64,000 nt of DNA, from positions 26,435-90,434 of the forward strand of contig PMON01000052.1 in assembly GCA_003162395.1 (NCBI GenBank). The letters are read 5' to 3'. The DNA comes from Acidimicrobiaceae bacterium. Lineage in GTDB: Bacteria > Actinomycetota > Acidimicrobiia > Acidimicrobiales > RAAP-2. The notes below the pieces were generated by a model. It had not been told where the DNA came from, did no database searches, and saw only the letters and a program-made list of their open reading frames with translations. Positions within the stretch are counted from its first letter, which is position 1. Every line of letters starts with the position of its first letter. A program made the translations under genes and the position numbers. Positions 20,730-29,705 of the stretch are shown here, in pieces.

Positions 20730-21108
20730 TCGGTGGAGAGTACGCCGTACCCGCTGGTCGCTGCGAGCACCCCTCCGAGGTCGTGTCCTCGAGGGTCCAC
20801 GGGCCGTGCAATTCATGGCGTTCTGCGGACGTCGCGAGGCGAGGCGAGTGGGGTGCGTGGGCCGGTCGGCTTTCGGCTTCACAGCCTGGGCGATTGCGCT
20901 CAGAACATTCTTTCGATTCCCTCGGCACCCCAGCGCGCAGGCCGACGTGCGCGAGGGACCGACCCTCGGTATCGTCACCCGTTCGCGCCCGTCGCTCTTC
21001 TGCGAGGGTGTTGGCCTCGAGAGACCAGTTCGCCACCGCCCGCCAGTGGGATCGTGGAGCCGACTTTGCTGCCCGACGTCCCCCGCCACTTCTAGGAGGA
21101 CCGCTGCC

Positions 21109-21927
21109 ATGTCCCGTCGCATCGCGCTCGTCGGCACCCTGCTCGTCGCACTCACCGTCACGCTCCCCCACGCTGCCAGCGCCTCGGCCACCAAGAGCAC
21201 CGTGTCGAGGACGACGACGGTGTCCTGCTCCCCGCACACGCCATCGTCGAGCGAGCCCTCGCGCCTCGCCCCGCTTGCGGCGAACGCAGTCCCCGGCTAC
21301 TCCCTGGCGTACTGCAGTGACTTCACCGGCTCGCGTCTCCCGTGGGGATGGGAGAAGTTCAGCGGCGTTCCAGGGGGCGACCCGAGTGGCTACTTCGAGC
21401 CGTCGCACGTGGTGGTGCACGGAGGTGTCGTGCAGATCAAGACCTATCGGGACCCGAGCCGCGGCAAGTCCTGGGCAACGGGCGGCATCTGCCAGTGCGG
21501 TGCGCCTCGCACGCACGGGGCCTTCTTCGTGCGCTCGAAGTCGGTCGGCGCCGGCCCCGACGACGTCGAGCTGCTCTGGCCGGTCGCGCACGTGTGGCCC
21601 CCCGAGGTCGACTTCAATGAGTCCTCGGCCCACCCCCTGAGCTCGACGTGGACCGTGCACTTCACGACGAAGAACAAGACCAAAGAGCACACCGCACTGG
21701 TCAACCTCAAGCAGTGGCACACCTGGGGCGTCTTTTGGACGCCCACGACACTCATGTTCACTGTCGACGGCTTCATCTGGGGAAAGGTCAGGTCGTCGCG
21801 CGCGATCCCCACGGGCCCGATGACCCTCGACATCCAGTCGCAGACCTTCTGCGGCATCATGCCGGAGTGCCCGACCGCCCCCGCGTCCTTCGAGGTCGAC
21901 TGGGTGCAGGAGTTCACGAAGAAGTAG
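21109..21927 (+). CDS. Secreted GH16-type glycoside hydrolase (copy 1)
   Basis: Signal peptide; catalytic EVDFNE (ExDxxE); GWEKFSGVPGGDPSGYFEPSHVVV. ATG at 21109, GGAGGA upstream. Confidence 0.8.
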   Translation: MSRRIALVGTLLVALTVTLPHAASASATKSTVSRTTTVSCSPHTPSSSEPSRLAPLAANAVPGYSLAYCSDFTGSRLPWGWEKFSGVPGGDPSGYFEPSHVVVHGGVVQIKTYRDPSRGKSWATGGICQCGAPRTHGAFFVRSKSVGAGPDDVELLWPVAHVWPPEVDFNESSAHPLSSTWTVHFTTKNKTKEHTALVNLKQWHTWGVFWTPTTLMFTVDGFIWGKVRSSRAIPTGPMTLDIQSQTFCGIMPECPTAPASFEVDWVQEFTKK

Positions 21928-23238: not shown

Positions 23239-23388
23239 CTACGTCGAGGTGTCCTCCAGCATCGGCGCATCGTCGGCCGCGGTGCTCTCCAACGCGCGGA
23301 CGACGGCACCGTGTGCGACGAGCAGGTCGCGCACGACGAGGACGAGCAAGCTCGTCGCCACCACGAGCGTGCCGACGAGCTCAGGCAT
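23239..23388 (-). CDS. 49-aa single-TM protein at end of mau-like operon
   Basis: MPELVGTLVVATSLLVLVVRDLLVAHGAVVRALESTAADDAPMLEDTST, ATG 23388, TAG 23239-23241, 8-bp overlap with mauE stop. Confidence 0.45.
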   Translation of the reverse strand: MPELVGTLVVATSLLVLVVRDLLVAHGAVVRALESTAADDAPMLEDTST

Positions 23389-23902
23389 CGGCCATCTCGG
23401 GGCGCGCGCGCGCCATCGGTCCGGAGAGGAACGACGCGGCGAGCAGGGCCGCGACGAACGCCACGGCGATCGACCCTGCGCCGAGTGACGGCGACAGCCG
23501 GACGAGTCGCGCCGCCGACGGTCCGTTGCCCGCAGCGGCAGTGACGAGTCCGGCCGCGAGCACCAGGTCGGTGACCACGTGGCGCCAGCCGATCACCGAG
23601 CCGCTGCGCCCGAAGCACCCGCACGGTTCCGCACGCCCCGCGCTGATCGCGACGATCGAGAAGGCGGCGAAGCCCAGGTAGGCAAGCGCGAGGGCCAGCC
23701 TCGCGAGCCACCCGTCAGTGGCGAGCACGAGCGCACCGAGTGCGACCTCGGCGAGCGCCGCGGCGCGGACCAGCGTGTCGCTCGCGGGGAGTCGAACCGC
23801 CCGCATCGCCTCGACCGCAGTCCGTGGGCTCGCGAGCTTCGCGACGCCTGCTCCGGCCGCGAGCAGCGCGGCGGTCAAGGTGAGGCCAACCGCAATGCTC
23901 AT
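23381..23902 (-). CDS. mauE: MauE/DoxX-type redox-associated membrane protein
   Basis: GAGVAKLASP...VEAMRA...AEPCGCFGRSG and four TM segments. Confidence 0.8.
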   Translation of the reverse strand: MSIAVGLTLTAALLAAGAGVAKLASPRTAVEAMRAVRLPASDTLVRAAALAEVALGALVLATDGWLARLALALAYLGFAAFSIVAISAGRAEPCGCFGRSGSVIGWRHVVTDLVLAAGLVTAAAGNGPSAARLVRLSPSLGAGSIAVAFVAALLAASFLSGPMARARPEMADA

Positions 23903-23924
23903 CGTGCCTCGACTGGTCGCGCGG

Positions 23925-25766
23925 TCATCCAGAGACCCCCTGGCCAGGCACGTAGGTCAGCGTGCCGAACTGGAACGTCGCCTGCTCGTCGCCGTTGCCC
24001 TCGACGATGACCGAGGAGGTGGGCAGGCCGAGCGAGCCCGCCGGTCCGCCTCGCTGCGCGTACGTCGTGAGGATCGGCCCGTACAGGACGCAGCCGCGAC
24101 CCACCGCGCTGTCGAAGAGCGCGCCGGTGGCGAACTGCTGGGAGCGAAGCGCCACGCCGCCGATGACGGGGTCGACCTCGTCGGCGACGGGGACGCCGAG
24201 CAGGCGCGGGCCCTCCTCATCGTCCCGCCACGCCCCATAGAAGGTCCCGAGCAGCGAGTGGGTCCCAAAGACCTTTGACGTCACGATGCCGCCCCCGGTC
24301 CTCACCTTCGCGCCGGTGAGCGGGCTGAACCTCTCGTAGCTCGCCTGGCCGTCGGACGTCGCGACGGGAGCGGCCGTCGGGAATCCGAGCGCGCCGTGCT
24401 CCGCACCGAGCACGACCCACTTCTCGTAGATCGGGCCGTAGACAGGCTGCGCGCCGAACTTGACGGTCGAGTAGATCGCCCCGCGAGACACCACGCTCGA
24501 CGAGTCGATCACCGAGAAGTCGTTGTACGTGGCGCCCGAGGCGCCGGCGTGCAACTCGTCGGACGCGGGGTAGCCGAGCGGGCCGGCCTCAGAACCCAGC
24601 TCGAGGTAGCGCTCGAGGATCGCCCCGCGAAGCCAGTGCGCGCCGACGACCGGATTGGCGTAGATCGCCCCGCGGTAGACAAGGCGACCGTGCGCGAGCT
24701 TCGAGAAGAAGCCGTACGAGCTCGTCTTGTCCGAGGTCGAACGGGTGTCGCGGGAGGGGTAGCCGAGCACGCCGCCTTGCGCGCCGAGCGCTCGCCACTT
24801 GGAGAGCACGGGCTGGGTGACGACGTGGGTGCCCAGGGCCGGGCTCCCGACGGCCACTGCCAGCTCGTCGACGCCGGACCCTCGCCGGTGCCCGAATGCC
24901 TGGGCCCAGCCGTCGCCCTCATGCAGCGTGACGCGGTCCTGGAGCGGATAGCCGATGCTCGTGGGCGTCGATCCGGTCCGCCCCCGAACCGATGCCCACA
25001 CCGGATCCTCGACGAACCTGACCCCGCCCCAGGCGAGGTCGAAGATCGCACCGTACCGGAAGGTCGCCCACGTGCCGTTGCCGAAGGGCAGGCGCTCGAC
25101 ACGTCCGACCTGCGGGCCGAGCGGGCTTCCCGGTCCGCCCAGGTCGGACCACTGCATGATGATCTTCGAGGGCCACGGGTCAGGGAGGCACGGCGCGCTC
25201 TGGTCCACGGTGAACTGGTCGGTGAACGAGGTCGTCGTGCACGACTCGTCCCACACCCACGGCGGCGTGCACGTCACGACCCGGCAGACGACGGGGCTCC
25301 CGTAGTGCTCGGGGATCTCGAGGTTGCAGTTGCCGTAGCGGAACTGCACGCACGCGACGTGGCGGCGGTCGCACGAGGCGGTGTCCGGGCAGTGGCAGTG
25401 CCACGGCCACCCGGCGTTGCCGTTGCAGTCGACGTAGTAGCGCGCCGCGTCCCTGCAGAACGCGGAGCGATCCGCCTTCCAGAACCCGCCGACGAACGTG
25501 CCTTCGGGGCAGACGTTCGCCCCGCGCTGAATCGTGCAGCAAAAGGCCGTGAACCCGCCGCTGCAGTCCGCCTCCGGGCCGCACACGGCCTCGTACGCGG
25601 TGCGGGGCTCGAGCGCGAAGCGCGCGGGATCCATCGCGAGGGCCGAGCCGAGCAGCGACGTGCGGACGAGGAACGACCGGCGTGACCACGTCGCACCACC
25701 GAGCGCGCAGGAGATCCCCCGCAGCACCGCGTCGGACGCCGTCGACAGCGTCGGCGTGACCTTCAT
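23925..25766 (-). CDS. Tat-exported Cys-rich MauA-like domain fused to LGFP repeats
   Basis: WSRRSFLVRTSLLGSAL Tat signal; FCCTIQRGANVCPEGTFVGGFWKADRSAFC...WHCHCP; LGFP-type repeats (LGAEHGALGFPT, LGSEAGPLGYPA, LGAQGGVLGYPS). Confidence 0.8.
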   Translation of the reverse strand: MKVTPTLSTASDAVLRGISCALGGATWSRRSFLVRTSLLGSALAMDPARFALEPRTAYEAVCGPEADCSGGFTAFCCTIQRGANVCPEGTFVGGFWKADRSAFCRDAARYYVDCNGNAGWPWHCHCPDTASCDRRHVACVQFRYGNCNLEIPEHYGSPVVCRVVTCTPPWVWDESCTTTSFTDQFTVDQSAPCLPDPWPSKIIMQWSDLGGPGSPLGPQVGRVERLPFGNGTWATFRYGAIFDLAWGGVRFVEDPVWASVRGRTGSTPTSIGYPLQDRVTLHEGDGWAQAFGHRRGSGVDELAVAVGSPALGTHVVTQPVLSKWRALGAQGGVLGYPSRDTRSTSDKTSSYGFFSKLAHGRLVYRGAIYANPVVGAHWLRGAILERYLELGSEAGPLGYPASDELHAGASGATYNDFSVIDSSSVVSRGAIYSTVKFGAQPVYGPIYEKWVVLGAEHGALGFPTAAPVATSDGQASYERFSPLTGAKVRTGGGIVTSKVFGTHSLLGTFYGAWRDDEEGPRLLGVPVADEVDPVIGGVALRSQQFATGALFDSAVGRGCVLYGPILTTYAQRGGPAGSLGLPTSSVIVEGNGDEQATFQFGTLTYVPGQGVSG

Positions 25767-26269
25767 GACGTCACCGAGACCGCGTGGACACGCGTGCTCC
25801 ACAGCAGTGCGTTCACGTCGTCCAACCCGCGCTGGTACGCCGCTCGTCCGCCGAGGACCACGTAGAGGCAGAACGCCCGGTCCGCGGCGTGGAAGAACCG
25901 CTGGCACCCAGCCTGGCCTCGCAGCGACCGCTGGAGCGTCGACGCGGAGAAGTCGCTCGCCTCCAGGCGCACCGGGACGCCGTGCGAGCCGAACAGGGGC
26001 GTCGTGGCGCCCTCGGGCGCGTACTCGAGCAGCGCCACGAAGACGTGGGGCGGCGCCAACTCGCCGACGACGCCCCCGCCGAACGGTGCCCGGATCGCGG
26101 GGAGCGCGAAGTTCCCCGCGTGCAGGTACGGCTGTGCGTGCCCGCCGTCGTCGAGCCGTGCCGCGGGACCCGTGAACCGTGCCTCCCAGCCGACGGGCAC
26201 GAGCAGCGAGATGCCGTGCGACTCGAGGCGCCGCATGCCGGTCATCGGGGCTCTGACCTCGTCGTGCAC
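25763..26269 (-). CDS. Uncharacterised operon protein between the Tat/LGFP and thioredoxin-like genes
   Basis: ORF with 4-bp stop/start overlap to the 25766 gene. Start is GTG 26269 or ATG 26245. Confidence 0.65.
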   Translation of the reverse strand: MHDEVRAPMTGMRRLESHGISLLVPVGWEARFTGPAARLDDGGHAQPYLHAGNFALPAIRAPFGGGVVGELAPPHVFVALLEYAPEGATTPLFGSHGVPVRLEASDFSASTLQRSLRGQAGCQRFFHAADRAFCLYVVLGGRAAYQRGLDDVNALLWSTRVHAVSVTS

Positions 26270-26276
26270 CTCATGG

Positions 26277-27011
26277 TCACTCGATCCCCGGGGCATGGTT
26301 CGGGTAGAGCGACGGATCCCCCGGCCGGATGCCCGCGTCGAGCAGCAGGCGGTCGACGTCGGTTTCGCGCCGCAGGTCGCTCGCCGGCTTCCTCGCGTCG
26401 TGCCGCATGACCTCGGCGAGCGCGTCGTCGCCCGTGGCGACCGCCGCGAGGTCGAGGACACGAGGCCAGGTCAGCGCCGTGCCTTCGCCGAGCACCGTGC
26501 CCGTCGCCGCACCGACGAGGACGAAGTACGGCGAGCCGGGGACATTGAAGTCCGACCAGGCCTCGCTGGACATCACGACGTCGCACGCGTCAGGGGCGGC
26601 CTCAAGGATCGCGGACGGGCTCTCTTTGTCCGGGCCCTTCGGCACCACGACCAGGCGGAGCTGCGGCGGCAGGACCTCGCCCGAGCTGTCCTCAAGCTCG
26701 CTCCAGAAGCGCTGACACGACGTGCAGGTGCTCGAGAGGAATGCCAGCAGCGTGTCGCGCTCAACGCCGACGAGCGGGATGACCACGCCGTCGCCCCCCG
26801 GGGTCACGCCCGTGACCTGGTGCACCACGGGACCATCGGGCGCCGGGGGCCTCGACGCGGCCAGGCGCTGCGAAGCCACGCGTCGACGCGGCGGCGAGTC
26901 CGAGAGCTCCTCGACCTTGGCGACGAGACCCGCGTAGCTGTGGACGAGGGCGAGGACGAAGACCCCGAGCACGAGCAGGGCCAGCGCCTCGGCGATGACG
27001 AGCCAGATCAC
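26277..27011 (-). CDS. MauD/TlpA-like membrane-anchored thioredoxin-fold protein
   Basis: N-terminal TM; LLAFLSSTCTSCQRFWSEL (CxxC); GSPYFVLVG. GTG 27011 overlaps the 27008 stop by 4 bp. Confidence 0.8.
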   Translation of the reverse strand: MIWLVIAEALALLVLGVFVLALVHSYAGLVAKVEELSDSPPRRRVASQRLAASRPPAPDGPVVHQVTGVTPGGDGVVIPLVGVERDTLLAFLSSTCTSCQRFWSELEDSSGEVLPPQLRLVVVPKGPDKESPSAILEAAPDACDVVMSSEAWSDFNVPGSPYFVLVGAATGTVLGEGTALTWPRVLDLAAVATGDDALAEVMRHDARKPASDLRRETDVDRLLLDAGIRPGDPSLYPNHAPGIE

Positions 27012-27775
27012 CGCGCCGCCAGCGACATCGACGCCTCGGTGCGGGCTTGACGGAGCACGCCCAGGGCCAGGGCGCCGCTCGCGATCGCGCAGCCTGCAAC
27101 GACGGCCGGTTGCCCCGTTGCCGCCGAGAGGTAGAGCAGGATCGCCACCTGCGCACCCGTCGGTGCCGCGACGCTCCACGGGGCGATGCGCGCCACGCGC
27201 GCATGCAGGACGCGCAAGGACGCAGGGGTCGACACGGAGGCGCCGGCGAGCAGGCACGCACCGCGCACGATCCCGAAGACCGTGCCGACCGCGAACGCGG
27301 CCACGGGCGTCAGCGTGACGACCGAGGCGACGATCAGCGCGTAGATCGCATCGGTCATGACGTACGTCGCGATGCCCGTGCCAATCTGCCAGCCGTAGCC
27401 GCTCGAGTACACCCACGGCCGGAATCGGTCGAGCCAGCGCTCGTTCACCTGCCGGGGCCGGTCGGGCAGCCGGAGCCCGCCGAGCCGAGCGTCCCCCGCG
27501 AGGCAGAGGACGACGGCCACCGCGGTGACGACGTATCCCGGACCCTGATGCGAACCCACGAGCGCCACGGCCGCGGCGCCAGCAGACAGGCACGCGCCGA
27601 GGCAGGCACCGCCGGCAGTCGCCCCGACGAGGTACCAGCTCATCGACCACGCGTACGAGTGGCCCCGTGCGCGCTCGCCGAGAGGGGTAATCGTCGACAG
27701 CATGGACAAGCCACACGGCGACCACAGTCCGCGGAAGGCGCACGCGATCGCCAGCACGAGCACGAGCATCGTCAT
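27008..27775 (-). CDS. Polytopic membrane protein, tentatively CcdA/DsbD-like
   Basis: Multiple TM segments; FRGLWSPCGLSMLSTITPLGERARG resembles the conserved Pro-Cys motif of CcdA-type proteins. Confidence 0.6.
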   Translation of the reverse strand: MTMLVLVLAIACAFRGLWSPCGLSMLSTITPLGERARGHSYAWSMSWYLVGATAGGACLGACLSAGAAAVALVGSHQGPGYVVTAVAVVLCLAGDARLGGLRLPDRPRQVNERWLDRFRPWVYSSGYGWQIGTGIATYVMTDAIYALIVASVVTLTPVAAFAVGTVFGIVRGACLLAGASVSTPASLRVLHARVARIAPWSVAAPTGAQVAILLYLSAATGQPAVVAGCAIASGALALGVLRQARTEASMSLAAR

Positions 27776-29291: not shown

Positions 29292-29705
29292 ATGTTGAAG
29301 GGTTTCCGCAGTTTCCTCCTCCAAGGAGAGCTCATTGTCATCGCCGTCGGACTCGTCGTCGCACTGGCGTTCAGCAACCTGATCAAGGCATTCACGACCT
29401 CGATCGTCACACCGCTCGTGGACGCCGCCGAGGGCGGTGGCCCCGTGAGCGGCGGGCTCGGCTGGACGGTCAACGGGCAGCACGTCGACCTGGGCGCATT
29501 CATCGCCGGCATCGTCTACTTCGTCATTTTCATGGTGGTTGTCTACTTCGCGCTCGTCGTCCCCTATCGGACCTACATGGCGCGGCGCGGGACGAGCGTG
29601 TTCGGTCCCCCGCCTCCGATGAAGACATGCCCGGAGTGCCTGTCGGACGACCTGCCGGTCGCCGCGTCCAAGTGCCGGCACTGCGCAAGCGTGCTGACCA
29701 GCTGA
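29292..29705 (+). CDS. mscL: MscL-type mechanosensitive channel with C-terminal zinc ribbon
   Basis: MLKGFRSFLLQGELIVIAVGLVVALAFSNLIKAF and C-terminal CPECLSDDLPVAASKCRHC. Confidence 0.85.
   Translation: MLKGFRSFLLQGELIVIAVGLVVALAFSNLIKAFTTSIVTPLVDAAEGGGPVSGGLGWTVNGQHVDLGAFIAGIVYFVIFMVVVYFALVVPYRTYMARRGTSVFGPPPPMKTCPECLSDDLPVAASKCRHCASVLTS

Follow-up and report, generated by a model that had tools for sequence, protein, structure and literature searches.

A mau-like operon lies on the minus strand, at positions 23239-27775, of the window, the 64,000-nucleotide stretch of genomic DNA from a soil bacterium of the Acidimicrobiaceae (contig PMON01000052.1) analysed here. We propose that it encodes a dedicated extracytoplasmic thiol-redox system, in which homologues of the methylamine utilization proteins MauD, MauE and MauF, together with a conserved protein termed P4, would mature a client exported by the twin-arginine translocation (Tat) pathway, whose head with 16 Cys residues is carried on a stalk of LGFP repeats; we estimate the probability of this reading at about 0.66. 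Most related actinobacteria encode the MauF residue corresponding to Cys21 of the window protein by an in-frame TGA, which we infer to be read as selenocysteine (Sec).

The operon and its conserved gene set

The six open reading frames (ORFs), all of which were re-found in the sequence, form a single operon transcribed in the order MauF homologue, MauD-like protein, P4, client, MauE and P6. Its features are listed below, with the basis of each assignment in brackets.

27008..27775, minus: MauF homologue, polytopic, 255 aa, WSPCGLSML motif (family profile against Paracoccus denitrificans MauF)
27713..27715, minus: codon of MauF Cys21 (TGT); TGA, predicted Sec, at the same codon in 55 homologues (sequence)
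26277..27011, minus: MauD-like membrane-anchored thioredoxin-fold protein with CTSC, C96/C99 (family profile, transmembrane (TM) prediction)
25763..26245, minus: P4, conserved protein, 160 aa from the ATG at 26245, alternative GTG start at 26269 (recurrence in related loci)
23925..25766, minus: client, 613 aa, Tat signal, 16-Cys domain and LGFP repeats (sequence, Pfam)
25602..25766, minus: client N-terminal region with twin-arginine signal (SRRSFLVRTSLLGSALAM) (sequence; RR motif before the domain in relatives)
25173..25601, minus: Cys-rich domain (CRD), client residues 56-198, 16 Cys (Cys count; conserved Cys and motifs)
23928..25172, minus: LGFP repeat array, five LGxP motifs (PF08310)
23381..23902, minus: MauE, four TM segments, C94-G-C96 (PF07291, E 6e-16)
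23239..23388, minus: P6, 49-aa single-TM protein (sequence; similar small ORF among five first-pass matches)

The gene overlaps described in an earlier, sequence-only reading of the window were confirmed, with 4 bp between MauF and MauD (27008-27011), 4 bp between P4 and the client (25763-25766) and 8 bp between MauE and P6 (23381-23388). The same reading had called this a Mau-like maturation operon, which is supported, and the polytopic WSPCGLSML protein that it left unnamed can now be assigned as a MauF homologue. The MauF family profile matches P. denitrificans MauF with E 1.5e-23 (hhalign 98.5% over 169 columns, the membrane core) and a protein of Thermomicrobium roseum with E 2.5e-15. Residues W18, S19, P20, C/U21, G22, S24, P31, Q109, V110, G128, G132, T137 and R171 are invariant, also in these two proteins, and the first TM segment ends with the invariant WSP[C/U]G. 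MauF has no match among the NCBIfam models, its profile gave only chance matches to GAPDH in the PDB, a hand-written consensus-like MauF found no match among plasmids, and an AlphaFold2 model from three sequences reached a predicted local distance difference test (pLDDT) score of 40.9.

The profile of the MauD-like family matches MauD of P. denitrificans with E 5.9e-12 (hhalign 94.5%), and the window protein, in which an N-terminal TM segment at residues 5-23 precedes a thioredoxin-type CxxC domain, scores 15.5 bits against the TIGR02661 equivalog, below its curated cut-off of 188.6. MauE reaches 59.3 bits against PF07291, above the gathering cut-off of 27, and its CGC is kept in 40/40 aligned sequences. 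These homologies imply that all three maturation factors are present in the operon. P4 has no match in Pfam, NCBIfam or the PDB, and the P6 profile drifted into the N-terminal helix of MauD, so that the distribution of P6 is not interpretable.

The gene set recurs far beyond the window. The CRD was found in 50/200 relatives and in 30 of the 399 genomes sampled from the phylum; a single-sequence contig scan gave two loci, and the closest relative found was an Acidimicrobiaceae metagenome-assembled genome. In 34 of the 41 distinct loci of the order (35/42 in the raw output, where L031 and L033 are one contig), the CRD, MauD, MauE, MauF and P4 are clustered, with shuffled gene order, and the remaining loci are cut by contig ends, are second copies or have their MauF at another place. 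Of 27 further distinct phylum-level loci, nearly all contain the same five genes, and the 829 neighbourhood ORFs revealed no other recurrent family except household genes. Conserved co-occurrence, which the sequence-only reading had proposed as a check, is thus found at both levels. All 13 genomes that were checked for MauF away from the locus hold one. In G122, G142, G194, G198 and G330, MauF is encoded well away from the CRD locus or on a different contig, and MauD and P4 stay beside the client.

The Cys-rich client and its maturation

The client has exactly 16 Cys in residues 56-198, plus one in the signal region and one in the C-terminal part, and each of the 16 is kept in at least 39/43 aligned sequences. 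The domain also conserves CC and CxC pairs and the motifs GWWKAD, RYYxDC, FRYGxC and CRxVxC, with no conserved His or Met alongside the Cys, and a twin-arginine motif precedes it throughout the relatives. About eight disulfides probably close the head. Since 16 Cys allow 15!! = 2,027,025 full pairings, a dedicated oxidase or isomerase appears reasonable. We envisage that, once the client is exported, its disulfides would be formed or isomerised by a relay in which client thiols or wrong disulfides exchange with the CxxC of MauD on the outside, MauD with the CGC of MauE, MauE with the single Cys or Sec of MauF in the membrane, and MauF with a membrane electron carrier; both the order of the relay and the direction of electron flow are conjectural, and P4 may act as a chaperone. 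A role for MauE in forming the disulfides of the β subunit of methylamine dehydrogenase (MADH) has been a matter of speculation (PMC7794033, citing van der Palen et al. 1997).

The part of the client that follows the CRD is not conserved among relatives, where at least six modules are interchangeable. LGFP is the module of the window and its close kin (124.7 bits against PF08310, cut-off 22, E 1.8e-36), and other clients carry a beta-trefoil lectin, DUF4214, GYWLVASDGGIF repeats, FG-GAP-like repeats or GWAIDPD repeats, the names without a Pfam match having been assigned by eye. The LGFP array, seen in the sequence-only reading as the defining partner of the Cys-rich domain, is not supported in that role, as the C-terminal part is swapped or absent across relatives. 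Five loci (L135-L139) have no C-terminal module at all, and their stand-alone CRD, directly followed by MauD, is possibly the ancestral form. The client at L130:7239-9914 (minus strand) has LGFP-like repeats and then, by eye, cell-wall-binding repeat 2 (ADALAGGVLAG), which may be a further wall module. LGFP domains have been reported to interact with peptidoglycan (PMC12113857), and given the similarity of the window array to that of Corynebacterium glutamicum PS1, the LGFP stalk probably binds the cell wall. Outside these loci, a phmmer search of the PDB with the CRD returned chance matches only, and viral contigs contained no relatives.

Of the alternatives, the one that survives best, although we consider it unlikely, is that the 16 Cys bind a metal such as copper or zinc and that MauD, MauE and MauF are reductants that keep the thiols free, in the manner of TlpA/CcdA-type proteins for CuA or cytochrome c sites. 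MauD is indeed a TlpA/thioredoxin-type protein, the conserved CC and CxC pairs would suit a metal site, and Sec often favours reducing chemistry; but His and Met are not conserved with the Cys, the number of Cys is even with all 16 kept, and the known MADH client of MauD, MauE and MauF has six disulfides.

Still less probable, in our estimate, is a head that is a true amine-dehydrogenase-like light chain with a tryptophan-derived quinone, which MauD, MauE and MauF would mature as they do in MADH and for which the C-terminal part would serve as heavy chain. The sequence-only reading had described the head as light-chain-like, and its Cys and Trp spacing does resemble MauA: the pattern C-x5-C-x6/7-C-x0/1-C-x7/8-CPxGT-x9/10-W recalls that protein, and the conserved W41 falls at the place of MauA W57 (a pairing from a weak alignment). 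The presence of MauF, MauD and MauE points in the same direction, as does the T. roseum locus, which joins MauA-like proteins, propellers and a TGA-containing MauF. Homology, however, was not established. The window client has no match to PF02975, which exceeds its cut-off in 0/399 genomes; hhalign of the CRD against MauA gives P 0.01-0.05, with about 6% of shuffled sequences reaching the mean CRD score; the CRD has no conserved Trp at the W108 place (from the same weak alignment), and its W115 is lost in L135-L139 and replaced by Tyr in L045/L055. The absence of a nearby heavy chain, noted in the sequence-only reading, holds on a wider scale, as neither MauB in a phmmer search nor the T. roseum propeller profile matched any of the 829 neighbourhood ORFs; PF06433 was found in 0/61 relatives, but the control for this search also gave no match. 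MauG occurs in 3/61 relative genomes, and the C-terminal modules are unrelated to each other. A tryptophan tryptophylquinone (TTQ) enzyme is therefore unlikely. What stands is that the client works with the same maturation factors as MauA; its identity with MauA does not stand.

An in-frame TGA in mauF

MauF of the window is of the Cys type, with TGT in WSPCG, and the Sec feature could not be seen in the sequence-only reading because the window holds this version. Across three sets, 55 homologues have an in-frame TGA, always at the same Cys column, whereas 25 Cys-type genes contain no TGA within the match; the only other TGA codons in MauF genes lie close to the end of the gene itself. For 15 homologues of the order, the first codon of the open frame is that of the Gly following WSPC, since a TGA stands directly before it, and the upstream TM helix and WSP are conserved in the TGA-type genes. 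All 24 readable phylum-level CRD loci are of the TGA type, and a MauF homologue is found in 68/399 genomes of the phylum sample, most of them with a single TGA inside the match. In T. roseum, the TGA at L074:8744 was missed by annotation, and the RefSeq gene starts downstream of it. A code change in which TGA encodes Trp was rejected, as TGA also terminates these frames and the motif Trp is TGG.

The TGA tracks the machinery for Sec insertion. tRNA-Sec was detected in 38/39 Sec-type genomes versus 3/26 Cys-type genomes (Fisher p 2.6e-13, a value that ignores kinship and is inflated by it, since most Cys-type genomes come from the family of the window), not counting marginal 47-bit tRNA matches in two Cys-type genomes. 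The pattern also holds inside family f54, where G475 has both TGA and tRNA-Sec and G330 has neither. SelB exceeded the cut-off in 13 of the 15 Sec-type genomes tested and in a single Cys-type genome. In G541 (C35:18301-24765) and G139 (C12:193959-202480, L144), the mau-like locus has a tRNA-Sec gene no more than about 6 kb away, and in G139 a SelB-like gene as well.

Downstream of the TGA, a 6-bp stem (nucleotides 12-17/22-27) is conserved, with a second hairpin directly after it. Compared with 300 synonymous recodings, pairing of the first and second hairpin gave z values of 10.0 and 7.6 in Sec-type CRD loci, 4.3 and 7.3 in distant Sec-type MauF genes, and 2.8 and 1.0 in Cys-type CRD loci. 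In the first stem, 96% of cells are paired and covariation is 0.140 versus 0.035 in shuffled alignments, with one pair differing between the two Sec groups, 11 sequences having exchanged C-G for G-C by a double change. Taken by itself, alignment A6 gives a covariation score no higher than that of slid controls (+2, +3), and support for the first stem comes from the synonymous test and alignment A7. The second hairpin changes register between subgroups; we therefore claim no fixed structure for it and restrict the firm structural claim to the first stem. That the TGA is an ordinary stop, in a decayed gene or before a short protein started downstream, as the RefSeq start in T. roseum would have it, is very unlikely given that 55/55 TGAs occupy the same conserved Cys column behind a conserved TM helix and WSP, track tRNA-Sec and SelB, and are followed by hairpins above the synonymous expectation.

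Significance and relation to known systems

Several observations weigh against the operon as a thiol-redox system with a MauF of Sec ancestry. In place of a CxxC pair, MauF conserves a single Cys or Sec, close to where its first TM segment ends; P4, present in nearly all related loci, has no explained role; AlphaFold2 gave a pLDDT of 33.5 for the CRD from three sequences and no client structure was obtained; and Tat substrates normally fold before export, so that the time and place of Cys oxidation are unclear. Furthermore, three Cys-type genomes do carry tRNA-Sec, and the window genome is 87% complete, making the absence of tRNA-Sec there uncertain.

Distant MauF genes, mostly of the Sec type, also occur with MauD and MauE, and 15 of 20 such loci adjoin another Tat-exported Cys-rich protein with 10 Cys and the pattern CGHxxTT...GGGWxRCC...DCCS...RINGD. 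This 10-Cys 'CGH' family (L152-L167 and L171, e.g. L154:6892-8001 and L159:7857-8375) has no significant similarity to the CRD or to MauA. That a single MauD/MauE/MauF trio occurs with three types of client speaks for a general role in thiol chemistry.

MauF is missing from Table 1 of a 2026 inventory that covers 119 prokaryotic selenoprotein families and subfamilies (PMC13188914), and a literature search for MauF or methylamine utilization as a selenoprotein yielded nothing relevant by title, an earlier sighting elsewhere being still possible. It is reasonably likely that MauF is an unlisted selenoprotein family whose Sec form prevails in this Actinobacteria sample, that MauD, MauE and MauF constitute a disulfide-maturation machine linked to Tat export, which is widespread and serves three or more types of client (MauA, the modular surface head with 16 Cys and the 10-Cys 'CGH' protein), and that Cys took the place of Sec in the lineage of the window, in most cases together with the loss of tRNA-Sec. 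On this account, a trio so far linked to MADH is recast as a reusable maturation module, and MauF gains a likely redox residue, Cys21, which is Sec in most relatives. If the Sec assignment is true, this adds a membrane-embedded selenoprotein family; in T. roseum, the single case examined, its member is truncated in the public annotation. A modular surface protein family sharing one Cys-dense head is also predicted, widespread in mostly uncultured actinobacteria.

As to the neighbours in the window, the gene downstream of the operon at 20806-21927 (plus strand) resembles by eye a secreted GH16-type glycoside hydrolase, and 29292-29705 (plus strand) appears by eye to encode an MscL-type mechanosensitive channel, an ordinary neighbour.

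The mau cluster of P. denitrificans (L073) comprises mauR, F, B, E, D, A, the amicyanin gene, J, G and two ferredoxin-type genes. Like it, the window operon places MauF, MauE and MauD homologues beside a disulfide-rich client with a twin-arginine-type leader; unlike it, the window operon lacks nearby MauB, MauG, amicyanin and MauJ, its client is not detectably PF02975 and is fused to repeat modules, P4 is added, and MauF in the phylum of the window is mostly in the Sec form. The MADH-like locus on the T. roseum plasmid (L074, 475850-488068 reverse) shares MauE, a MauD-like protein and a MauF, which has its in-frame TGA in WSPUGYSM, but its clients are recognised by the MauA profile (E down to 1e-25), the two copies read have a Trp at each of the TTQ positions, and propeller proteins accompany them. 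This locus contains several MauA-like genes and four propeller proteins, one of them fused to MauE.

In candidate RiPP (ribosomally synthesized and post-translationally modified peptide) clusters of Streptomyces found with decRiPPter, MauE and MauD homologues likewise occur away from MADH and without other mau genes, and are thought to serve a different precursor; there the precursors are peptides, with no Tat-exported 140-aa head, and the passage on these clusters does not mention MauF (PMC7794033). The LGFP array of the window matches C. glutamicum PS1/MytA (PDB 6swz/6sx4, E 5e-11). In those Corynebacterium proteins, LGFP is fused to a mycoloyltransferase, whereas in the window it is fused to the 16-Cys head, most relatives of which carry other modules. 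Finally, MauF resembles known prokaryotic selenoproteins in having a TGA at a redox Cys, Cys homologues, tRNA-Sec, SelB and hairpins after the TGA.

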